Shown here: positions 27,641 to 39,105 of the stretch, in pieces
How the letters are laid out: each line of letters opens with the position of its first letter
Position numbering within the stretch: position 1 is the first letter of the stretch
Origin: Gammaproteobacteria bacterium
GTDB taxonomy: Bacteria > Pseudomonadota > Gammaproteobacteria > Methylococcales > Methylomonadaceae
NCBI GenBank assembly: GCA_018830325.1
Contig: JAHJSQ010000032.1
Coordinates: 1-44,315, forward strand
Length of the DNA: 44,315 nucleotides
Direction of reading: 5' to 3'
Program-made: the position numbers and the translations under genes
The notes under the pieces: model-generated
The model's input: only the letters and a program-made list of their open reading frames with translations
Databases searched by the model: none
Told to the model about the DNA's origin: nothing

Positions 27641-28789
27641 ATGAGAGATTTAGCTTTGGAAGAAGATTTAACGACCGATTTGTCGATATTACAAAGTCAT
27701 TTAGATGGCATGATCAATCGGGTCCAACAGAACAGTAATGCCTTAAGGCGATTTCAAGCATTTGAAAGACGCTTGCTTAACTTAAATTCTTTATCCGAAA
27801 TGATTATTCATATCCTTGAAGACGGGAAGGCGTTTTTCGACCTCGATGCCATTAGTCTATGTTTGGTCGATAAAGAAAACGAATTATCGGAGTATTTGAT
27901 ACAAGACGGTTTCGATATCAAGGCCGCAAGGCAATTGACCTTGCTTAAAGATCGTCATCAGCTGAAAACTCTTTTCGGTTTTGCAGTAAAGCCCTATATC
28001 GGTGCCTATCATCCAAAATGTTCTGAATTTTTTAATTATACTGATCGAAAGCCTATTAGTGTCGCATTGATTCCGTTAATCCGACGGGGAAAATACCTCG
28101 GATCGTTGAATTTCGGTAGCTTTCAGCAGGAACGTTTTATTGATACGATGGCAACTGATTTTATCGAACATATGATTTCGGTGGTCAGTATTTGTTTGGA
28201 AAATAATCTCAATTTCGAGATGATGCGCAGGACCAGTTTTATCGATACACTGACCGGCGTCAACAACAGACGTTTTCTTGAGCAAAGACTTGGAGAAGAA
28301 ATCGATCGTTGCCAACGAAGCGGTGAGCCATTGTCTTGTTTGTTTCTCGATATCGATTATTTTAAGTCAATCAACGATACCCACGGACATCAAGCCGGAG
28401 ATTATGTTCTAAAACAAGTGGCCGGATCGGTAAAAAATCTGCTACGCAATAATGACGTTCTGGCTCGATACGGTGGAGAGGAGTTTGTAGCTTTGTTGTC
28501 GAACCTTAATGAAAGTAAATTAATAGCTATCGCTGAACGTATAAGATCTACGATTGAATCGCTCAATATGGTTTTTGATGGTAAACCGATTCAGGTGACT
28601 ATTTCGATAGGGGCCGCGTCTTACTCGGCATCTAAGCATATACTTTCGAGCGCAGCCGATATTGCGATGCGGCTAATTGAGTCGTCCGATGCTGCGTTAT
28701 ATCAAGCCAAGCACAACGGTCGCAATCGTATTGAAAATAATGGCTTTATTATTGACCGAACGCTAATGGAAAGCGCGGTATCCTATTAA
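27641..28789 (+). CDS. GAF-like plus GGDEF diguanylate cyclase
   Basis: A 382-residue soluble protein. The N-terminal 200 residues contain a coiled coil (LQSHLDGMINRVQQNSNALR) and a GAF/DUF484-like domain with SVALIPLIRRGKYLGSLNFGS. The GGDEF domain (about 205-370) has DTLTGVNNRRFLE, LFLDIDYFKSINDTHGHQAGD and an intact GGEEF active site (278-282), so it should make c-di-GMP from two GTP. The inhibitory site RNND (269-272) is present, which suggests product feedback. SDAALYQAKHNGRNRI is the usual domain end. The signal sensed is unknown. GGGGAGTAGG lies upstream of the ATG, spaced a little far. Confidence 0.9.
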   Translation: MRDLALEEDLTTDLSILQSHLDGMINRVQQNSNALRRFQAFERRLLNLNSLSEMIIHILEDGKAFFDLDAISLCLVDKENELSEYLIQDGFDIKAARQLTLLKDRHQLKTLFGFAVKPYIGAYHPKCSEFFNYTDRKPISVALIPLIRRGKYLGSLNFGSFQQERFIDTMATDFIEHMISVVSICLENNLNFEMMRRTSFIDTLTGVNNRRFLEQRLGEEIDRCQRSGEPLSCLFLDIDYFKSINDTHGHQAGDYVLKQVAGSVKNLLRNNDVLARYGGEEFVALLSNLNESKLIAIAERIRSTIESLNMVFDGKPIQVTISIGAASYSASKHILSSAADIAMRLIESSDAALYQAKHNGRNRIENNGFIIDRTLMESAVSY

Positions 28790-28894
28790 CCTAGAAAAAG
28801 TATTTAACCATCAAGAATAAGAAGTTAGGATTCGGTCAAAAAGTAGGTGTCGGCGGAAGGGAAAGCCGCCGTCTAGCCTTACACGGACGTATTC

Positions 28895-28961
28895 ACCCAA
28901 CATCTAAACTCCAAAGTCCATTGGCTATGGTTAACTATCTTGGATAGTCTAGTTGTTTGGC
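28895..28961. repeat. 67-bp palindromic repeat, copy 5, degenerate
   Basis: ACCCAACATCTAAACT begins a 67-bp stretch whose core (CCAAAGTCCATTGGCTATGG) matches copy 4, but the right arm is decayed (AGTCTAGTTGTTTGGC). It is flanked by ACACGGACGTATTC, the complement of the usual flank. A GGCGG...CCGCC stem lies before it (28852-28872). An old, drifting copy. Confidence 0.6.
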
Positions 28962-29263
28962 CTGGGCATGCCAAGCGAGCCGCCGAACTCTTAGCTCCAG
29001 GAAGTTATTTATCGCGAAATCCTTAATTGAATAGTTTGATATGCATTTGCAAAACAACTTCGCTATTTTGAACGGTTATTCATAGTTTATGAAAATATCC
29101 TCTTGAAGTACTTAAATAATCCCTCCAAGCTATCACTAGCCTAAGTATAAAATCACAACTTCCGCTCTGTGCGTTCAATATAACTTCTCTGTTCCGTGCC
29201 ACATGTCAAAAATTAGACTTTTTATCGGCTTAGACTTGTTATCATAATGTCATCTTACAATAT

Positions 29264-29269
29264 TATAAT
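29264..29269 (+). promoter_or_regulatory. candidate -10 box of the V-ATPase operon
   Basis: TATAAT lies 35 bases upstream of the first ATG in an AT-rich region. No -35 at 16-18 bases is convincing; TTGTTA at 29237-29242 is 21 bases away. The remainder of 28962-29303 has no gene. Confidence 0.3.
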
Positions 29270-29303
29270 CCGCTTATATTTAGCCTAATTTTCGGGGTAG
29301 CAC

Positions 29304-30665
29304 ATGATCGAGCATATGGTCAGACATTACAATATTTTGTCCATTGTCGGTAATATCATTACTGTAAATGTTGACAGTGCCTTTGCAAACCAAGAAATCA
29401 CGACTCGATTCGGGGATTTAGCCGAAGTCGAAGACGTCAACGGCAGCGAATCTTTGGCTCAAGTCATCAAAATCGATGGAAGCAAGGTGGCTTTGCAGGT
29501 TTTTTCAGGAACTCGGGGCATTTCGACCGCAGCTTCGGTGCGGTTTTTAGGTCATTCGATGCGAGTGACTTATTCGGCGAATATTCTCGGCCGGATTTTT
29601 AATGGTACGGGGGGGCCGATGGACGGTGGTTCGATGCTTAAACCGGACCCGAAAGTGACGATTAACGGTGCGTCGGTGAACCCGATGAAACGAGTGTTAG
29701 CTTCGAAAATGATCCGAACGCAAGTTCCGATGATCGACCTATTCAATTGTCTGGTGGAAAGTCAGAAAATACCGATTTTCTCGATTTCGGGTGAGCCGTT
29801 TAACGCATTTTTGGCTAGAATCGGTATTCAGGCCGATGCCGATATCGTAGTTTTTGCTGGCCTTGGCCTAATTTTCGATGATTTTCATTATTTTAGGTCG
29901 CAATTCGAGGAAGCGGGAGTCTTTGCGAGGACAGTGATGTTTTGCAATCTAGCTTCCGATCCTATCGTTGAACGCCTATTGGTGCCGGATATGGCATTGG
30001 CGGTTGCTGAACGCTTCGCAGTCGAAGAGGGTAAACGGGTATTGGTGTTGATGACCGATATGACCGCTTATGCCGATGCAATGAAGGAAGTCGGTATTTC
30101 AATGGAACATGTACCGTCGAATCGCGGCTACATGGGGGATCTCTATTCGCAGTTGGCGCGCCGATACGAAAAAGCCTGCGATTATAAAGGCGCCGGTTCC
30201 GTTACAATTTTGTCGGTGACAACGATGCCGGGTAACGATGTGACGCATCCGGTTCCGGACAATACCGGTTATATTACCGAGGGTCAGTTTTATTTGCATG
30301 ACGGCATGCTCGATCCGTTCGGTTCGTTGTCTAGATTGAAGCAGCATGTCATCGGTAAGGTCACACGCGAAGACCACGCACAAATCATGAATACGATGAT
30401 CCGTTTTTACGCGGGCTCGGTCGATGCCGAACAAAAGCAGGCAATGGCCTTCGATTTGTCCGATTACGATAAAAAACTGCTCAGATTCGGACAATTATTC
30501 AAAAAACGTTTCATGGACATCAATGTTTCAATTTCATTGGAGCAGGCCTTGGATTTGGGATGGCAAACCTTGGCCGAATGTTTTGAGGAAAATGAACTGT
30601 TGATGAAACAAGCGTTGATCGATAAATATTTCCCGAAGAAAAATTATGGCAAGACTGTCGCTTAA
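29304..30665 (+). CDS. V/A-type ATPase subunit B
   Basis: The non-catalytic nucleotide-binding subunit that alternates with A in the A3B3 head of a rotary ATPase. Family features are the N-terminal beta barrel, ANILGRIFNGTGGPMDGG, MIDLFNCLVESQKIPIFS, IVVFAGLGL, LASDPIVERLLVPDMALAVAERFA and GYMGDLYSQLARRYEKA. The P-loop position is altered (SGEPFNAFL), as normal for B. Length (453) is normal to short. GGGG lies six bases before the ATG. It is the first gene of a tightly packed operon B-D-I-K-E-DUF2764-A. In chlamydiae and spirochaetes the order begins with E, so this gene is in an unusual lead position. Confidence 0.93.
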   Translation: MIEHMVRHYNILSIVGNIITVNVDSAFANQEITTRFGDLAEVEDVNGSESLAQVIKIDGSKVALQVFSGTRGISTAASVRFLGHSMRVTYSANILGRIFNGTGGPMDGGSMLKPDPKVTINGASVNPMKRVLASKMIRTQVPMIDLFNCLVESQKIPIFSISGEPFNAFLARIGIQADADIVVFAGLGLIFDDFHYFRSQFEEAGVFARTVMFCNLASDPIVERLLVPDMALAVAERFAVEEGKRVLVLMTDMTAYADAMKEVGISMEHVPSNRGYMGDLYSQLARRYEKACDYKGAGSVTILSVTTMPGNDVTHPVPDNTGYITEGQFYLHDGMLDPFGSLSRLKQHVIGKVTREDHAQIMNTMIRFYAGSVDAEQKQAMAFDLSDYDKKLLRFGQLFKKRFMDINVSISLEQALDLGWQTLAECFEENELLMKQALIDKYFPKKNYGKTVA

Positions 30666-31248
30666 TAAGGCTTCATTGCATAAAGAAAGCGCTAAACTCA
30701 AGCGCTATCGACAGTATTTACCTTCGCTCGATCTCAAGCGAAGACAGTTGATGGCCGAGCGTGCAAAAGGCTTGGCACGGCTCAAAAATACCGAACTGCA
30801 AATCGAACAGTGCCGGCAAAAAGTTAGCGAAACATTACCGATGCTGTCTTATCGAGAGATTAATTTAAATAACCTGGTTAAAGTTTCGGGCGTTGAAATA
30901 GGCGAAGAAAATATTGTCGGTGTCAATGTGCCGGTATTGATCAATCACAAACTGGCGCTGATGGCCTATTCGCCTTACCTTAAGCCGCATTGGGTCGATG
31001 CGCTGGTTGTGCAATTAAAGATCATGTTGGAATTGAAATTGCGACAACAAGTCGATAGGCAGCGCTTGATGATTTTAGAAGCGGCAGTCAAAAAAGTAAC
31101 ACAAAAGGTTAATTTGTTCGATAAGGTGTTGATTCCTAAAACGGAGCGTAATATACGCAAAATCCGTATTTATCTCTCCGATGCCGAACGAGCCGATGTG
31201 GTCCGGGCTAAAATGACCAAACAAATCCGAATTAAACAGGGTGTTTAA
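30646..31248 (+). CDS. V/A-type ATPase subunit D
   Basis: The central-stalk rotor subunit, 200 residues and nearly all helical, with N- and C-terminal helices expected to form a coiled coil inside the A3B3 ring. It starts RLSLNKASLHKESAKLKRY, the usual LNKxxL motif, and ends VLIPKTERNIRKIRIYLSDAERADVVRAK. The ATG overlaps the end of subunit B by 20 bases, so translation is coupled. No separate F subunit, the normal D partner, is encoded in the operon. Confidence 0.9.
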   Translation: MARLSLNKASLHKESAKLKRYRQYLPSLDLKRRQLMAERAKGLARLKNTELQIEQCRQKVSETLPMLSYREINLNNLVKVSGVEIGEENIVGVNVPVLINHKLALMAYSPYLKPHWVDALVVQLKIMLELKLRQQVDRQRLMILEAAVKKVTQKVNLFDKVLIPKTERNIRKIRIYLSDAERADVVRAKMTKQIRIKQGV

Positions 31249-33045
31249 ATGGCAATCGTTAAGCTGAAAAAGATTACATTTTGCGGCATGCTACCTGATA
31301 AGCGTCAAATTTTGGAGCAAGTGCAAGCATTTGGCGGATTGCATTTGATTCCGCTCACCGATCCACCGGATCAGGAGTTCGGCGTACCTAAAAATACTGA
31401 GGGCGTGCTTGAAGCGCTTAAATATTTGAACGCTTGCGGAAACAAAAGACATCAGATCAGAGACAGTACTCGCTTCGATCTTGAGAAGGTTACCGAAGAA
31501 GTTTTGGCTATTAAATCGAAAGTCCGTGAATATACAGATACTTACGACACATTATTAAAGCGAATCGAAGAGGTCGAGCCCTGGGGCGATTTTCATTTGC
31601 CTGCCACAGAGCACTTGGCCGGCCACCGATTATGGTTTTACATCGTCCCGAAAAGAATGATGAAAAAACTCGAGGGCTTAGATTGGGTTTGGCAGACGGT
31701 TTACCAAAACAATTTGTATTGTTATGTCGTGGTCGTTGCCGAATCCGAGCCGCCCGAAAGTAGCATGCCGGTGGCAAGAACGCATACCGGATCCGTTCCT
31801 CTTTCGACGTTGAAAAGCCAGCTCAGTCAGGTCGAGTTGACGCTCGAGGATTTACAAGCCGAACGAGAGTCTTTAACTCGCTGGATAACTTTAATGACAG
31901 TGCATTTCAGCGAGGCGCTCGATCTAGCGGATTTGACTAAGGCACAAACTATCACGCACGACGAGGCCGGCGTGTTTGCATTGCAGGGATGGTTGCCCGA
32001 AGCACAAATCGATAAATTCAGCCGTTTTGCCGATAATCAAGGCTTGGCTTTATTGGTCGAAGACCCGTCGCCAGAGGATAATCCTCCGACCTTGCTTGAT
32101 AATCCCCGGCAATTGGCTGGCGGAGAAGACATCGTAAATTTTTATCAAACGCCGAATTATTACGGTTGGGATCCATCGGTTGTGGTGTTTTTTTCATTTA
32201 GCGTTTTTTTTGCGATGATTTTATCCGACGCCGGTTATGCCGCGGTTTTCGGATTTATATTGTTGTTTAAATGGCGCCGCCTCGGACAAAGCCTCAAGGG
32301 TCGGAGACTGAGGGTGTTGGCCGCTAATACGGTGGTTATCTCGCTCGTCTGGGGCGTTATTTCGGGCGGTTATTTCGGCTACAGTCCGCCCGAAGAAAGA
32401 TTAGTGTCCGCATTAAAGGTCATCGATATTAACGATTTCGATGGCATGATGCGCTTGTCGATCGCGGTCGGTGTCGGGCATATTGCGTTGGCCAATGCGA
32501 TTCGAGCCTATCGGCGATACCCTTCTTTAACGGCATTGGCCTCTGGCGGATGGCTGTTGGCAGTCGTTGGCGGATTTTGTTTTTGGTTGTCTGAGGCGAT
32601 AGATAGTGTGCTGTTGCGCCAAATGGGCATTATTTTGCCGAGCGTTGGTGGCGTTTTGTTGTTGCTTTTCAGTAGTGAACGCGGTTTAAAACGCTGGAAC
32701 GACTTGTTATGGCGTTTACTGGACGGTTCTAAGAGCTTGATCGGCATTACCCAATTATTCGGCGATGTACTCAGTTATATGCGTTTATTCGCATTGGGTT
32801 TAGCGAGTGCTTCGTTAGCGCTGACTTTCAATCAATTAGCGATGCAGGTTTATCATGCTTTACCCGGCCCCGGTTTGTTGTTTAGTATTTTGATTTTAAT
32901 CGTAGGTCATGTCTTGAATCTGATGCTATGTCTGATGAGCGGGTTAGTGCATGGCTTGCGTCTGAATTTTATCGAGTTTTATAACTGGAGCGTTTCCGAT
33001 GAAGGTTATCCCTTTAAAGCATTTTCCAAAAAAGGAGTCCGTTGA
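31249..33045 (+). CDS. V/A-type ATPase subunit I (a-type, membrane)
   Basis: The membrane stator subunit that provides the ion half-channels. The N-terminal half (about 1-290) is a cytosolic arm with helical hairpins. The C-terminal half has seven or eight membrane helices (from about 315). The essential Arg lies in VLSYMRLFALGLASASLA, the family hallmark. Length (598) matches the chlamydial/spirochaetal type. The ATG follows the subunit D stop directly, and the TGA overlaps the ATG of K by one base. A downstream GH...LMSGLVHGLRLNFIEFYNW segment is the typical end. Confidence 0.92.
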   Translation: MAIVKLKKITFCGMLPDKRQILEQVQAFGGLHLIPLTDPPDQEFGVPKNTEGVLEALKYLNACGNKRHQIRDSTRFDLEKVTEEVLAIKSKVREYTDTYDTLLKRIEEVEPWGDFHLPATEHLAGHRLWFYIVPKRMMKKLEGLDWVWQTVYQNNLYCYVVVVAESEPPESSMPVARTHTGSVPLSTLKSQLSQVELTLEDLQAERESLTRWITLMTVHFSEALDLADLTKAQTITHDEAGVFALQGWLPEAQIDKFSRFADNQGLALLVEDPSPEDNPPTLLDNPRQLAGGEDIVNFYQTPNYYGWDPSVVVFFSFSVFFAMILSDAGYAAVFGFILLFKWRRLGQSLKGRRLRVLAANTVVISLVWGVISGGYFGYSPPEERLVSALKVIDINDFDGMMRLSIAVGVGHIALANAIRAYRRYPSLTALASGGWLLAVVGGFCFWLSEAIDSVLLRQMGIILPSVGGVLLLLFSSERGLKRWNDLLWRLLDGSKSLIGITQLFGDVLSYMRLFALGLASASLALTFNQLAMQVYHALPGPGLLFSILILIVGHVLNLMLCLMSGLVHGLRLNFIEFYNWSVSDEGYPFKAFSKKGVR

Positions 33046-33494
33046 TGGCTGAGGTATTAGTGATTTTAGGATGGATCGGTTTATACGCCCCGATGGCCTT
33101 GGGCGCGATCGGCAGCATTATCGGTTGTGCGATCGCAGGTCAAGCCGCGATCGGTGCGATGCTCGATACCGAAACCGGGCACGGTCGCTATGTCGGCGTT
33201 TCGGCGATGCCGTCTTCTCAGGTGATATATGGCATTGTCGTGATGTTTACACTGAATCGGCCGATTACCGAAGCGAATGCTTCCGGTATTTTTGCGGTAG
33301 GCGTCTTGGCCGGATTCGCGCTGATGTTTAGTGCGATTTATCAAGGACAATGCTGCGCCTCGGCGATTCATGCCTCGAAAGCTAAACCTGAAATTTTCGG
33401 TTTATCGGTCGCTCCTGCCGCGATCGTCGAAGGCTTTGCCGTCTTTGCATTTATTTTCGCCCTCGTTATCAGCGGCGGAATTCCTCAATCTTAA
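33045..33494 (+). CDS. V/A-type ATPase subunit K (membrane rotor), Na+-type residues
   Basis: A four-helix proteolipid of 149 residues made of two hairpins fused in tandem, as in Enterococcus hirae NtpK. Helix 4 has the ion-carrying Glu (E129, AAIVEGFAVF). Helix 2 has SSQVIYG (S58, Q59) and helix 3 has YQGQ (Q100). E. hirae Na+ ligands T64, Q65, Q110 and E139 align to S58, Q59, Q100 and E129, with the same 29-residue spacing between the last two. This points to Na+ rather than H+ transport; Ser for Thr keeps the hydroxyl. The first hairpin lacks a carboxylate, so one ion per subunit is expected. AAAGGAG precedes the ATG; an in-frame TTG at 33042 is less likely. Confidence 0.9.
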   Translation: MAEVLVILGWIGLYAPMALGAIGSIIGCAIAGQAAIGAMLDTETGHGRYVGVSAMPSSQVIYGIVVMFTLNRPITEANASGIFAVGVLAGFALMFSAIYQGQCCASAIHASKAKPEIFGLSVAPAAIVEGFAVFAFIFALVISGGIPQS

Positions 33495-33505
33495 GAGTCG
33501 AGAGT

Positions 33506-34195
33506 ATGAAAGCGGAAAAAGCGGGAATCGCGTCAAGCGGCGTTGAGAAGCTGATCGAGCGCTTGAGAGATGAAGCGATTAATGCCGGACAAGCCAAAGC
33601 CGAGGATATCGTGCTTAATGCTCAAAAGCGTGCGGCTTGGATTATCGAAGAAGCCGAGCAAGAGGCACAGTTATTGATAGAAAAAGCTCGTGTAGAGGCT
33701 GATGCCCTAAAAGCTTCCGGTGTCGATGCTCTACGCTTGGCGGGCCGAGATGCGTTGCTTAAATTACGCGATACTTTGCTTGGCAGCTTCAGTCAGGAAG
33801 TCATGCGCGTGGTCGGAAAACAAATGGCGAAAAGTGAGTTCATCGAACAGTTGATTTTGGCGCTTGCAGGGCGTGTTCGGGAAAAAACCGGCCTTGATCA
33901 AAATTCTAAAATTATTTTTCAATTACCCGAAGACGTTGTCGGCGTCGAGGATTTGCGAAGAAATCCGGAAGAGCTCAAGCAAGGTGCCTTATCGCATTTG
34001 ACTGCCGCGATTGCATCGGATTTGTTGCGGGACGGTGTATCGTTTGAGGTTTCGGATCAAATTAAAACGGGCTTGGTAATCAAGCTCGAAGAGAACAATA
34101 TGATGATCGACTTTACAGATGAGGCGGTCGCGACATTGTTTCTCGAGCATTTGCAACCTCGCTTTAGAGCCCTATTGCAAGGTATCGTTAAGTGA
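33506..34195 (+). CDS. V/A-type ATPase subunit E
   Basis: A peripheral-stalk subunit of 229 residues. The first 90 residues are a long charged helix (KLIERLRDEAINAGQAKAED and then heptads of Ala, Glu and Lys), the C-terminal part a mixed head domain. It fits the short E subunits of chlamydial V-ATPases. The partner helix (G/H) is not encoded in the operon. The last four bases overlap the GTG of the next gene. Eleven bases separate it from K. In chlamydial order E is the first gene; here it follows K. Confidence 0.85.
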   Translation: MKAEKAGIASSGVEKLIERLRDEAINAGQAKAEDIVLNAQKRAAWIIEEAEQEAQLLIEKARVEADALKASGVDALRLAGRDALLKLRDTLLGSFSQEVMRVVGKQMAKSEFIEQLILALAGRVREKTGLDQNSKIIFQLPEDVVGVEDLRRNPEELKQGALSHLTAAIASDLLRDGVSFEVSDQIKTGLVIKLEENNMMIDFTDEAVATLFLEHLQPRFRALLQGIVK

Positions 34196-34878
34196 GCGGC
34201 TGGAATTTTAAATATACCTTGTTACTTAGCAGTCTGCCTGTCCACCCGGTCGATTTATTCGAAGCTCGCCAGCTTCCGGTTTCTCGAATTCAATTAGATA
34301 AACGTTTGGCTTTGTTAGATGCCGAAGATGCCCAGGATTTGGCGCGTATTGAAGCTTTGCTGCATTGGTCGAAAATGAAAGAGCTTGATGACGAAGCCAT
34401 AGTTAAGCAAGGTATGGCCGACTGGTATTCGATCAGGAGTCCGTTTTTAAAAGAGATCGTTATGTGGCGATTGGAATTAAGAACTATTTTATCGGCGCTT
34501 AGAAGAAGGCGGGACGGCATGAACTTAGCGCCGGACATGCCTTTTTACGGCTTTGGCGATCGGTTGCGATTCATTAGACAGCATTGGCGTGATGCCGCTT
34601 TCGGGTTAGATTCTATATTGCCCTGGGTTAGGCAAGCCAGTGAACTAATCGAACAAGATCGATCACTGGAATTAGAAAAACTGATGCTCGAGGTGGTTTG
34701 GCGACATTATCAAAGAGTTGGGCAGGGGCATTATTTCGATTTTCCCGCAGTCGTTATTTATGTATTGAAATGGGATGTCATCAGCCGTTGGTCGAGTTAT
34801 GACAAAGAGCATGCCATGCTGCGCTTCGACGAATTAATCTCGGCCGGACTGGAAGGCGTTTCGATTGAATTTGGATAA
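34192..34878 (+). CDS. DUF2764 protein, C-like subunit of the V/A-type ATPase
   Basis: 228 residues starting with GTG at 34192. Such a protein sits between E and A in chlamydial, spirochaetal and Bacteroidetes V-ATPase operons (DUF2764). It probably takes the place of subunit C as the link between rotor ring and central stalk. Seen here are LLSSLPVHP near the start, WRLELRTILSALRRRR in the middle and RFDELISAGLE near the end; it is largely helical. Assignment rests on operon position and length and on memory of the family; detailed similarity needs a profile search. Confidence 0.75.
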   Translation: MSGWNFKYTLLLSSLPVHPVDLFEARQLPVSRIQLDKRLALLDAEDAQDLARIEALLHWSKMKELDDEAIVKQGMADWYSIRSPFLKEIVMWRLELRTILSALRRRRDGMNLAPDMPFYGFGDRLRFIRQHWRDAAFGLDSILPWVRQASELIEQDRSLELEKLMLEVVWRHYQRVGQGHYFDFPAVVIYVLKWDVISRWSSYDKEHAMLRFDELISAGLEGVSIEFG

Positions 34879-34888
34879 AAACCCTACG

Positions 34889-36730
34889 ATGAATGAAAGC
34901 AAATTGATAGCTGATTTAGATCAAGCGTCGGCGAGAGTCGTCTCTGTTCAGGACGATATCGTTTCGATCGAGTCGGTTGCTGACACGCCGCTGACAAAAA
35001 ATGAAGTCATTTATATTTTGCCGAGCCGAAGCGAAGCTAAACATAAGGAGCGGCTTAAAGCAGAAGTATTGCGTATCTATGGTAATCGTGCCGATGCACA
35101 AGTTTATGAAAATACCTCAGGGGTTGGTGTTGGCGATCCGGTTGTACAAACCAGTGAATTACTGTCGGTCGAACTTGGGCCCGGGCTTCTGGGGCAAGTC
35201 TATGATGGCTTGCAAAATCCCCTCGATTTATTGGCAACCGAATACGGCTATTTTTTGCCTCGGGGCGTCGATTTGCCGGCTTTGGATAAAAATACCAAAT
35301 GGGCATTCACCCCGTGTGTGCAAACCGGTGCAAAACTGTATGCCGGCTGTGCAATCGGAGCCGTTCAGGAGCGACGCTTCAGCCATAAGATCATGGTGCC
35401 GTTCGACATCAATGGAGAGGTCGAGGTCACTTGGATTCAAGAAGGTAGTGTTACGGTCGATGAGGCTGTCGCAAAAATCAAACTGGCCAATGACAAAGAG
35501 CAAATCATTACGCTCAAACAACGATGGCCGATTCGCATGCCATTATCGCAACAATTACTACGCAATAATGTGGTGGAACGGCAATATCCAACCGATCCCT
35601 TGATAACGCATTTACGTTTGATCGATACTTTTTTCCCGATTGCCAGAGGCGGTACCGGCTGTATTCCCGGGCCTTTCGGTGCGGGTAAGACAGTTTTACA
35701 GAGCTTGATTTCGAGAAATTCGGAGGTCGACATTGTTATCGTAGTCGCTTGCGGAGAGCGAGCCGGCGAGGTGGTCGAGACCATTACCGAGTTTCCGTTG
35801 ACGATCGATCCAAAAACCGGCGGATCGTTGATGGACCGTACTATCATTATCTGTAATACTTCGTCGATGCCGGTTGCGGCTAGGGAGGCGTCGATTTATA
35901 CAGGAATCACGCTCGGTGAATATTATCGGCAAATGGGCTTGAATGTATTGTTGCTTGCCGACTCGACGTCACGTTGGGCGCAGGCGATGCGCGAAACCTC
36001 TGCGCGGCTCGAGGAAATTCCGGGCGAAGAGGCTTTTCCGGCCTATTTAGATTCTGCGATCAAAAATATTTATGAGCGAGCAGGCGTAATTCAAAATCGT
36101 GACGGAGGAATCGGAAGTCTGACTATGATCGGCACCGTTTCGCCGGCCGGCGGTAATTTCGAAGAACCGGTTACGCAATCGACATTGAGCACGGTCAAGA
36201 CTTTTTTAGGACTAAGCGCCGACCGGGCCTATAAACGTTTTTATCCGGCTGTCGATCCGTTGCTGTCCTGGTCTCGCTATTTAGAGCAGCTTAGGACTTG
36301 GTATGATCGTGAGCTTATTACAGGGTGGACTGAACTTGTATCTAAAATTTTAGAGTTGCTTGTTCGGGGCGACAGTGTTTATCAAATGATACAAGTTGCC
36401 GGTGAGGAAGGCGTGACTTTGGAAGATTTTGTGCTGTATCAGCAAGCCATATTCATCGATATGATCTATCTGCAACAGGATGCTTTCGACGATGTTGACG
36501 TGTCGGTGCCGCTTGAGCGGCAAAAAGAAATATTTATGCTGATTATCAAGTTGGTCGATGCGGAGTATCGCTTTACCGACCAAAACCATGTGCGGGATTA
36601 TTTTACTCGGCTGACCGGACTGTTCAAAAATCTTAATTATGCGGTTTGGCGTTCAACCGAATATAACGATTTACTCGCTAAAATAGAGAACTTGTATAAA
36701 TCGGCCGCTAATCAACAATTCCCGGCTTAA
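34889..36730 (+). CDS. V/A-type ATPase catalytic subunit A
   Basis: The catalytic ATP-binding subunit of the A3B3 head, 613 residues from the ATG at 34889. The frame opens at a TTG at 34865, which has GGAAGG upstream; either start is possible. The P-loop GPFGAGKT is at 261-268 (K267). CGERAGEV holds the catalytic Glu, and LLADSTSRWAQAMRE and EIPGEEAFPAYL are A-type motifs. VSPAGGNFEEPVTQ is typical of the chlamydial/Bacteroidetes branch. The gene overlaps or abuts the DUF2764 gene. It is the last gene of the operon, whereas in the chlamydial order A precedes B. Confidence 0.94.
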   Translation: MNESKLIADLDQASARVVSVQDDIVSIESVADTPLTKNEVIYILPSRSEAKHKERLKAEVLRIYGNRADAQVYENTSGVGVGDPVVQTSELLSVELGPGLLGQVYDGLQNPLDLLATEYGYFLPRGVDLPALDKNTKWAFTPCVQTGAKLYAGCAIGAVQERRFSHKIMVPFDINGEVEVTWIQEGSVTVDEAVAKIKLANDKEQIITLKQRWPIRMPLSQQLLRNNVVERQYPTDPLITHLRLIDTFFPIARGGTGCIPGPFGAGKTVLQSLISRNSEVDIVIVVACGERAGEVVETITEFPLTIDPKTGGSLMDRTIIICNTSSMPVAAREASIYTGITLGEYYRQMGLNVLLLADSTSRWAQAMRETSARLEEIPGEEAFPAYLDSAIKNIYERAGVIQNRDGGIGSLTMIGTVSPAGGNFEEPVTQSTLSTVKTFLGLSADRAYKRFYPAVDPLLSWSRYLEQLRTWYDRELITGWTELVSKILELLVRGDSVYQMIQVAGEEGVTLEDFVLYQQAIFIDMIYLQQDAFDDVDVSVPLERQKEIFMLIIKLVDAEYRFTDQNHVRDYFTRLTGLFKNLNYAVWRSTEYNDLLAKIENLYKSAANQQFPA

Positions 36731-36902
36731 ACATGTTCTCGCAGTTTAGGGTGGGTGTGGAGCATGCCTGTCCAAGAATGTCGTGAACTTAGCGCTTTAT
36801 CGCGTTAGCAGTTGAAACGGTTCTCTTTCCTACTAAATAAACCATTTAGGAAATAGTCAATGATTGCTTTCCAATACATTGATCGTGGAAGAGGGTACGA
36901 TT

Positions 36903-37130
36903 CAGCAATTCCCAATTTGAGAATAAAAAAGGGTGCGGAGTGTGCTTGGCGAAGATGTCGGCGGCAGAGGCTGATTTTTGCTCCTCGGCAATTGCTCCTG
37001 CATTGCCCTAATACACGCCATCCTTGGCGTTTAGCCGCCGCCAAGTCCCCATGGATGGGATTACGGCGTTCCTCGACAGGCATACCCCGCACCCTGAACA
37101 CGAAGAGATTTCTCAAACTGAGAATTGCTG
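36903..37130. mobile_element. MITE-like element with CAGCAATTCCCA ends, copy 2, with insertion
   Basis: CAGCAATTCCCAATTTGAG at 36903-36921 and its near-complement at 37112-37130 bound 228 bp. Compared with the 168-bp copy at 19261, it has about 60 extra bases in the core, and those match the stand-alone repeat at 22601-22653. It abuts the truncated TATACC element that ends at 37340. The DNA at 36731-36902 holds no feature I can support; no clear terminator follows the ATPase operon. Confidence 0.75.
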
Positions 37131-37340
37131 GGGTACGATTACTCGCTTGACAGGACGCCGTAAACCCAGCACCTAAATGCCATAGCCTATTGGCCATGAT
37201 TGGTTACATAGATAATTTAGGTCTGGATAAATACGTCCATGTAGGCTCAATGCCAGTCCTTCGCCTAGCGTTAGGTGAGGGGACCGAAAACCACTGTGCC
37301 TCCCTTAGGCACTGCCGAAATGTGAAGTGCGAAAGGTATA
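37131..37340. mobile_element. TATACC element, copy 3, left-truncated
   Basis: The right end GAAGTGCGAAAGGTATA and the inner segment CGTCCATGTAGGCTCAATGCC match the 23041 copy. The left end is missing where the CAGCAATT element joins. It contains the sixth 67-bp unit. It lies right at the end of the chemoreceptor gene. Confidence 0.65.
37164..37228. repeat. 67-bp palindromic repeat, copy 6
   Basis: ACCCAGCACCTAAATG starts the unit and AATTTAGGTCTGGAT ends it after 65 bp; two bases of the right arm are lost. The core has CCATAGCC and TTGGCCATG. Confidence 0.7.
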
Positions 37341-37353
37341 TTTTTGTATATTC

Positions 37354-39105
37354 TTAGGTTTTAAATTGACCGACCATTTCTTTTAATTGACTGGCTAAGG
37401 TCAACAATTCTCGGCATGCGGTCGTTGTGTTTCTAGCGCCGACCGATGTTTCATTGGAAACCGAGCTGATGTTGCTGATATTGCGGTTGATTTCCTCGGC
37501 GACCATGCTTTGTTGTTCGGCCGCGCTCGCGATTAGATTGTTCATGTCGTTGATTGTATCAATTTTGTCGCTGATGCTGGCGATCGCCTCGCCTGCCGAT
37601 GCGGCTTGATCGACGCTGGTTGTGGCTTGTTTTTTGCCGTTTTCCATAACTTTGACAGCTTGTTCGGCACGGGTCTGTAAGCGTTCGATCGTTTTTTGGA
37701 TTTCCAGCGTTGAATTTTGCGTGCGGCTTGCCAGTGTTCTGACTTCGTCGGCGACAACCGCGAATCCTCGGCCTTGCTCTCCGGCTCTAGCCGCTTCAAT
37801 TGCGGCATTCAGTGCCAGGAGGTTGGTTTGTTCGGCGATACCTTGAATGACGCCCAATACTTCGCCGATGCTATTGCTATCCGACTGTAGTTCATGAATG
37901 ACATGCGCGGCATTTTCCACTTCGGATGCCAACCGGTTAATGTCTGCGACGGCAGCCGTCACAACATTTTTTCCTGTCAACGCTTCTGCGTCTGCTTTTG
38001 ATGCGGCCTCTGAGGCTTTAACAGCATTGCGAGCGACTTCTTGAACGGTGGCTGTCATCTCTTCCATTGCTGTTGCCACTTGTGTGGTTTCGGATTGTTG
38101 CCTATCGACACCGTGTTCGGTTTCTTCGGAAATATTAGCAAGTCGTTGCGAGGCTTGAGTCAATTGTTCGCTGGTCGTGCTGATATGGTCGACTGTCTTG
38201 GCTATTTTTTTCACGAAATTGTTGAAGCTGTGCGCAACCCAAGCAAATTCTGTTTTTCCTTCGGTTTTTAGCCTGGCTCTGAGGTCGCCTTCTCCGCTGG
38301 CAATGTCCTGTAGTTTTATCGCCAGATCGGTTAGCGGTGCAATGATGATGCGGTTCATCGAAATATAACCGGCCGCACCTATTACGATCAATGTGATAAT
38401 CGTAAAGCCGATTGCGTAAAGTACATGGGTTCTTAGTTGTTCATTGACACGATTCAAAGGTGTAATGATTTCAAAAGCGCCATGAAGGTCGCCGGCACGT
38501 TTGTTTTCCATGCGATAACCAAGTATATCGCTTCCTGCATAATTGCCCCATAGTTCGCCTGAAGTAGCCGGATCGCCATGACAGACTTCGCATTGCTTGG
38601 CCAATCTTACCGGTCGAAAGTAACGGATTTCTTGGGTTTCTTCGTCGATGTAGGAGTATTCGGTGGACTGGGGATTATTTTGGAAAAACTGAAGGGCTTT
38701 TTGTTCCAGCGCATCGGCTTCGTTAGCAGGGTTCCGTGCTCCGACTCGAGGTGCTTTGAATCGGAAGTTCCCTTCTTTGGCTTTGGCTTCGACGACATCC
38801 ATTGCATTCATAACCGGGACCGTCGCCAAAATTTTTGCTCTGCGTTCGGGGTTAATGCTGTCGCCGGCCATTATTTTTACTAGCTCGACAGAAAAAATAC
38901 CGCTTTCCCATTTTTGATTGGTATTTTCCCTAACCGATTCGGAAACCAATAGCAGGTTCTTGGCATTTTGAATTTCGGATTCGATCAGTTTTTGTTTTTC
39001 CGATATCCCGTACGTTACCAATAAGCCGCAAGCTATGATTGCCAGTCCCGTAAGGGTGATAGCCACTACTTTAACGCCAACAGAGTTCCAATTCATCATT
39101 ATCAT
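37354..39105 (-). CDS. methyl-accepting chemotaxis protein with periplasmic c-type haem motif
   Basis: 583 residues. Helix 1 (about 11-33) and helix 2 (about 228-250) enclose a periplasmic domain of about 190 residues of the DUF3365/Tll0287 type. It contains a c-type haem motif CEVCHGD (Cys172, Cys175, His176), with [20 protein letters not shown] before it. A HAMP domain (about 250-305) and the signalling coiled coil follow, with the hairpin tip [32 protein letters not shown] split around the usual Glu. It should tune CheA in response to redox state, oxygen, NO or another haem ligand. There is no C-terminal CheR pentapeptide. GGAG lies seven bases before the ATG. No che genes are adjacent. 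Confidence 0.9.

Follow-up and report, generated by a model that had tools for sequence, protein, structure and literature searches.

A V/A-type ATPase operon of the DUF2764 type with a circularly permuted gene order in a gammaproteobacterium

Introduction

How can an operon come to start at a different gene while nearly all of its neighbours stay together? The question is raised by a V/A-type ATPase operon at positions 29304-36730 (+ strand) of a 44,315-nucleotide stretch of DNA from a methanotrophic gammaproteobacterium of the family Methylomonadaceae (assembly GCA_018830325.1, contig JAHJSQ010000032.1). This stretch, hereafter the window, is an entire contig (C24) of a 4.8 Mb assembly. The genes of the operon run B-D-I-K-E-DUF2764-A. 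They match the Bacteroidota order E-DUF2764-A-B-D-I-K exactly once that ring is opened at A|B rather than at K|E, a circular permutation that preserves five of the six neighbour pairs. A first-pass annotation of the window had described a permutation of the chlamydial and spirochaetal order; the permutation holds exactly against Bacteroidota, and the order in Chlamydia is presumably E-DUF2764-A-B-D-I-K as well.

The favoured reading, given a probability of a little under four in five, is that a single rotation by block exchange took place in an ancestor of the DUF2764 type through paired inversions. The permuted operon would then have been transferred between lineages, encoding a probable Na+ pump in which DUF2764 takes the place of subunit C.

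The Operon and Its Genes

The locus holds a V/A-type ATPase operon that is intact and belongs to the DUF2764 (chlamydial/Bacteroidota) type. All seven genes are complete, in line and on the + strand; the open reading frames (ORFs) and the identities drawn from Pfam and NCBIfam profiles bear out the gene order first proposed. The first gene encodes the non-catalytic subunit B (29304-30665), which matches ATP-synt_ab, scores 703.9 bits against PRK02118 (cut-off 431) and is 98% identical to B of the laboratory methanotroph Methylotuvimicrobium buryatense 5G. It is followed by subunit D, the rotor shaft (30646-31248; ATP-synt_D 128.3 bits, PRK02195 191 bits), by subunit I/a, the stator and one half of the ion channel (31249-33045; V_ATPase_I 45.4 bits, cut-off 30.7), and by subunit K/c, a double-hairpin proteolipid with two ATP-synt_C stretches (33042-33494; PRK09621 185.7 bits). 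Subunit E of the peripheral stalk (33506-34195) is assigned by position, by homologues in other loci and by weak scores that lie under the profiles' own cut-offs (PRK01558 85 bits, E 4.7e-24; PRK01005 68 bits). The DUF2764 gene (34192-34878; PF10962 34.8 bits, cut-off 24.1) precedes that of the catalytic subunit A (34865-36730; PRK04192 749.4 bits, ATP-synt_ab_Xtn 86.7 bits), which closes the operon and starts with TTG at 34865 or with an alternative ATG at 34889. B and D overlap by 20 bases, D and I abut, I and K overlap by 4, K and E lie 11 bases apart, E and DUF2764 overlap by 4, and DUF2764 and A overlap by 14 or are 10 apart, depending on the start chosen.

The operon is of the V/A type by its subunit A with the extra barrel-sandwich domain, together with B, D, I, K and E (E by weak scores and position). 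It is of the DUF2764 type by a PRK02118-family B with a DUF2764 gene in the same operon, and by a genome that holds no standard C or F: PF01992 and PF01990 have no match at E <= 0.1 in the window genome (G000), which rules out an archaeal-type V/A-ATPase with C and F. The gene order departs from the E-DUF2764-A-B-D-I-K of this type and places the operon in a rotated subtype. The first-pass annotation had named a second E-DUF2764-A set just outside the window as something that would speak against it; the 4.8 Mb assembly contains a single match to DUF2764 (E <= 0.001), a single match to A (E <= 1e-60) and no second operon set.

Distribution of the Permuted Order

The gene order was surveyed in 81 loci, namely the window and the best 80 of 303 confirmed B relatives in genome contigs, annotated with hidden Markov model profiles built from their own genes. 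In shorthand orders such as BDIKEUA and EUABDIK, U denotes DUF2764. Contiguous B-D-I-K-E-U-A, with no gap above 1500 bases, is found in 56 of the 81. Four more (L042, L046, L055, L107) keep this order for all seven genes but with inserted or duplicated sequence or with one gene split. The remaining 21 are incomplete; in 14 of these the locus stops no more than 350 bases from the last gene, which is not so in the other seven (L040, L058, L059, L097, L106, L108, L109). No other gene order occurs among the 81 loci. By record title, the 80 loci come from methanotrophs, purple sulfur bacteria, cyanobacteria, a Rhodovibrionaceae genome, Gemmatimonadota and a genome of Candidatus Lambdaproteobacteria, a group that we take to be SAR324.

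A further 33 regions were cut from surveyed genomes, including every genome over the B-family cut-off, and not yet covered, from the six wider surveys listed below (phylum, class, class of G529, Cyanobacteria, Gemmatimonadota and the Lambdaproteobacteria-labelled group). These comprise 21 BDIKEUA, six EUABDIK, one DIKEUAB, one with a gap before A, one with B inverted and three that are partial. The EUABDIK order is carried by three Bacteroidota records, five Lambdaproteobacteria-labelled genomes and one gammaproteobacterium; in L187-L189, three of the six EUABDIK regions, DUF2764 scores weakly, at 26-59 bits. Two loci, L232 and L053, are equal in length and probably the same contig.

The permuted order is present in Gammaproteobacteria, Alphaproteobacteria, Cyanobacteria, Gemmatimonadota and one Lambdaproteobacteria-labelled genome, and is no oddity of this DNA. 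The first-pass annotation had named its being already common in Bacteroidetes or other groups as a finding that would speak against the proposal; it does prevail in other groups, though the three Bacteroidota records keep E-DUF2764-A-B-D-I-K. An event peculiar to the window genome was likewise rejected, as B exceeds the cut-off in all six sampled genomes of the genus and in 25 of 61 relatives, the window genome being counted both times. In wider surveys, where counts include the seed genome each time and the B family covers both gene orders, B exceeds the cut-off in 6/398 genomes of a phylum sample, 10/369 of a class sample, 5/337 of the class of genome G529, 2/194 cyanobacterial genomes, 3/200 Gemmatimonadota and 6/52 of the Lambdaproteobacteria-labelled group. 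Within the taxonomic order of genome G348, two of 48 genomes have an operon of this type.

Six loci come from a plasmid collection. Three are EUABDIK (Bacteroidota) and look like chromosome pieces labelled as plasmid, two are BDIKEUA and one is a broken operon (Halomonas). One of the two BDIKEUA loci, on a Tateyamaria omphalii plasmid, has DUF2764 split into two frames (L113 13846-14537). Patchy occurrence, the intermingling of phyla in the tree described below and the plasmid copies point to horizontal transfer. Transfer by phage was considered and rejected: tblastn of A against phage records returned 37 records, all below 60% identity, with 16 of the 20 rows shown being unannotated. A scan of viral contigs with the Bacteroidota B gave no match.

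Several observations were made on the surroundings of these operons. Two alphaproteobacterial plasmids (L115 2424-9001, L113 8037-9011) have a carbamate kinase gene immediately upstream of the permuted operon, and one of the two also carries the remaining arginine deiminase set beside it; arcA is also found near the Enterococcus operon (L196). In Thiocapsa sp. KS1 (G067; L194, L102), the contig with the permuted operon holds two further V-type sets about 3.2 Mb along, which face apart and read C-I-K-E-A-B and I-K-F-A, the latter clipped at the region end. This assembly measures 10.4 Mb and may hold more than one organism.

Phylogeny of Subunits A and B

A joint A+B tree of 50 rows was computed under a mixture model and rooted on seven rows of the C/F type, with 26 of its 47 inner branches starred. 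It took in 14 of the 80 genome-contig loci, the rest of its rows coming from other sources, and the other 66 loci were omitted for time or incompleteness. Among the outgroup loci, L183 and L194 are C-first, L190 and L191 were dropped, and L192 is labelled IKECFABD though no E was found in it. In a smaller tree of 35 rows, L183, L190 and L194 bear the label IKECFABD, but L183 and L194 are C-first and no C or F was found in L190.

The DUF2764-type operons form one clade in the 50-row tree (100/100). The first split within it leaves two Bacteroidota rows and one row of the Lambdaproteobacteria group, each of them EUABDIK, on one side. The next split (99/95) separates the EUABDIK operons of three Lambdaproteobacteria-group genomes and one gammaproteobacterium, together with a partial A-B-D operon, from the permuted rows. 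The permuted clade has 35 rows (100/100) and includes all 33 BDIKEUA rows, and the 35-row A+B tree agrees. Taken singly, A and B also each place the permuted operons in a single clade, with support of 99 and 98, respectively. Two genomes with altered orders, G348 and G408, are a sister pair inside the clade (99 and 98 for A and B alone; 100/99 in the 50-row tree).

On this sequence evidence the permuted order probably arose once. EUABDIK is probably the older state, with the permuted clade nested within the EUABDIK type, because the permuted rows lie inside that type in the joint A+B trees. The Bacteroidota/chlamydial/spirochaetal operon shares the seven subunits of the window operon and, like it, has no recognisable F or standard C. 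It differs in being cut at K|E, in forming a separate clade and in the length of DUF2764, which is 268-292 residues in five proteins of that type and 228 in the window.

Origin of the Rotation

In the preferred reading, the ancestral operon would have been E-DUF2764-A-B-D-I-K. Once, in the ancestor of the clade, the E-DUF2764-A block would have swapped places with B-D-I-K to give B-D-I-K-E-DUF2764-A, each half perhaps being turned over in turn by two adjacent inversions. The permuted operon would then have passed between lineages, leading to a clade that is now in Proteobacteria, Cyanobacteria, Gemmatimonadota and others. By the arithmetic of inversions, inverting first one part of an operon and then the other gives the rotated operon read from the other strand. 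We infer the two-inversion route because such half inversions yield an exact rotation, and because the sister pair G408 and G348 shows an inverted B and a full rotation, respectively. In G408, B is inverted and stands head-to-head with D-I, and the remaining operon lies on another contig as I-K-E-U-A. G348 reads D-I-K-E-U-A-B and is one inversion further on. G408 hints at a half-way stage of paired inversions and is best taken as a lead. As five of six neighbour pairs survive, rotation may be a cheap way of making a large rearrangement. The ORF after the inverted B of G408 (L182 1-814) has matches in several methanotrophs, in the sequence that immediately precedes B.

A number of points speak against this account. 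Selection of the 80 loci by likeness to the window B favours close kin and the same order. The G408 assembly is 80% complete and its B-D junction sits on a single 3810-base contig, so that a chimaera is possible; the flanks of G408 and G348 also have no match to each other. No intermediate of the older step from EUABDIK to BDIKEUA is found among the loci and regions surveyed. As to the trees, the tool warned of long branches that meet at the root between the Bacteroidota-type rows and the C/F-type outgroup, which makes the polarity less sure than the clade. The starred branches of the single-gene A and B trees do not force the nesting, and the sampled sequences are without Chlamydiota or Spirochaetota.

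Tandem duplication of the whole operon with subsequent loss of the outer halves, one of two mechanisms offered by the first-pass annotation, yields the same order and is considered rather unlikely. An apparent B-D-I-B-D-I-K-E-U-A in Methylobacter marinus A45 (L042 10013-17468) resembles half of such an event, but this locus holds 100 N and both copies of B and of D score identically, as a scaffolding artefact would, which is probably what it is. Two further loci carry a short extra D start ahead of the full D (L046 11343-13364 and L059 6106-7450), but in both the D piece adjoins an inserted ORF and the change is local; the ORF in L059 presumably resembles Rpn/PD-(D/E)XK transposase-family proteins. 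No duplicated half-operon occurs among the 81 loci and 33 regions, and DUF2764 and A are single in the window genome. The sole candidate intermediate, G408, fits two inversions better than duplication or the circle route discussed below.

A reversed polarity, with BDIKEUA ancestral for DUF2764-type operons and EUABDIK derived, is improbable. The long branches that hold the root and the single-gene trees leave room for it, but the deepest split among DUF2764-type operons has EUABDIK on either side. The Kuenenia cluster is also in an EUABDIK-like order: in one report, the table gives E-unknown-A-B-unknown-D-I-L and the text likens the cluster to that of Borrelia (PMC2936114).

The other mechanism first offered, in which the operon is cut out as a circle and goes back in opened elsewhere, as might happen via a plasmid, would give the same order, yet it is hard to credit. 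Permuted operons do occur on plasmid records, but they are cut where the rest are, hence carriage on a plasmid does not bring about the rotation, and the inverted B of G408 is not predicted by this route. Least probable is independent assembly, in which the order arose several times from operon ends that are free to move: a B|D cut did arise twice (in the Rubrobacter C/F-type operon and in G348) and A or B has become detached in several genomes of the permuted clade, but all 33 BDIKEUA tree rows form one clade, also with A alone and B alone.

Other Cuts of the Same Ring

If DUF2764 stands for C, the operons of Enterococcus, Peptoclostridium, Rubrobacter, Bacteroidota, the window and G348 are rotations of one ring. 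The Enterococcus and Peptoclostridium operons are annotated H-I-K-E-C-F-A-B-D, in which I-K-E-C-F-A-B-D is a further cut of this ring. Such operons of the archaeal/Enterococcus/Clostridium kind would then share the cyclic order of the window, but they have their own H, C and F, are cut at D|I and are distant from it in the tree. The plasmid operon of Rubrobacter radiotolerans, annotated D-H-I-K-E-C-F-A-B, would be another rotation; unlike that of the window, it is of the C/F type and cut at B|D. V-ATPase-4 of Kuenenia stuttgartiensis is described (PMC2936114) as being without C, F and G and having an unknown protein at the DUF2764 position; unlike the window operon, it is not permuted, and one more ORF separates B from D.

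Not all operons fit. Four of the 15 C/F-type loci carry a set that is no rotation, in which C precedes I-K and A-B follows (L183, L194, L202, L203); L202 (2096-9952) is a Streptomyces operon that reads C-I-K-?-?-A-B-D. In L191 there are weak matches with F before E, and L190, L192, L201 and L234 are incompletely annotated. Rotations make up only six of the 56 possible block exchanges of seven genes. The binomial P of 0.0006 for four of five changes being rotations is unreliable, since the changes were picked post hoc and all C-first operons were counted once. It is tentatively suggested, as a possibility that falls well short of an even chance, that V/A-ATPase operons in general are a ring cut at four points (D|I, K|E, A|B and, twice, B|D) by successive half inversions, with G408 half-way.

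In the rotated order A and B, which pair up in the catalytic ring, are the last and the first gene of the operon, and in several genomes the two have come apart further. About 6 kb separate U from A in two tubeworm symbionts (G1559, G1560), and insertions lie between U and A in L107 and L184, that of L184 with an ORF judged by eye to be TnpB-like. In G1558, A is found on a separate contig; in G1557, some 14 kb lie between B and D; and a Gemmatimonadota assembly that contains runs of N has A and B roughly 1.3 Mb from each other.

DUF2764 as a Candidate Subunit C

The DUF2764 protein is probably a diverged and shortened subunit C, and probably takes the place of subunit C between the rotor shaft and the ring. 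Among 61 DUF2764 proteins that were aligned, five match the subunit C profile PF01992 at E <= 0.1, the best of them at 1.4e-7, and in a control Bacteroides ihuae also gives a match below the cut-off; the window protein itself has no PF01992 match. In comparisons of profile with profile, window-type DUF2764 is linked to the Bacteroidota type (7.9e-13), and the Bacteroidota type to subunit C (1.4e-7, probability 94). The direct comparison of window-type DUF2764 with subunit C reaches a probability of only 4.6, and a mixed set reaches 39.

Foldseek comparisons of structural models gave no confirmation of this assignment. The window DUF2764 model is all-helical, with a predicted local distance difference test (pLDDT) score of 91.8, and has no Foldseek match at E <= 0.001. 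A model of the long form (pLDDT 72.8) places two V-ATPase chains, 9cf8_Q and 7uw9_d, at ranks 12 and 16 of the 50 rows shown; both are chains that we take to be subunit d. These have the highest template modelling (TM) scores among those rows (0.38 and 0.37), but their E-values of 3.1 and 3.6 are non-significant. Searching solved structures with the DUF2764 profile returned a single match (E 0.25), to an unrelated protein, which was discarded.

DUF2764-type clusters are called devoid of C, F and G in one paper (PMC2936114), and DUF2764 is given no function in a report that a V-type pump with DUF2764 is needed by Bacteroides fragilis in deoxycholate (PMC10790697).

Ion Specificity, Expression and Flanks

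The pump probably moves Na+, as judged from residues of subunit K. Q60, Y63, Q101 and E130 are invariant in an alignment of five sequences that includes the Enterococcus K, and their columns are those of Q65, Y68, Q110 and E139, which we take to be the Na+ ligands of E. hirae K. The genus of the window genome is presumably haloalkaliphilic.

With this gene order, B would be made first and A last. A promoter-like site lies upstream of B (29239-29266, + strand), but such sites are no commoner here than chance would have it: 12 were observed in 28700-37400 against 12.0 expected. Terminator-like sites number 15 against 10.1 expected (sd 3.0). The operon is flanked by genes for a GGDEF protein and a chemotaxis receptor with a Tll0287-like domain (27641-28789 and 37354-39105).

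Significance

Searches of titles and abstracts on V-type ATPase gene order, rotated operons and DUF2764 returned neither this order nor the ring among the matches listed, although either may be in print; no literature on a methanotroph V-type ATPase was found. In the B. fragilis-type pump, DUF2764 is a probable stand-in for the missing subunit C. The separation of A and B in several genomes offers a natural test of whether neighbouring genes help the assembly of the complex. A rotated clade, a sister in the original order and a nested pair with a possible intermediate together make a case of operon rearrangement that can now be tested. If V/A-ATPase operons are indeed a ring cut at different points, rotation may be a general route by which operons change their first-made product while keeping nearly all of their neighbours.

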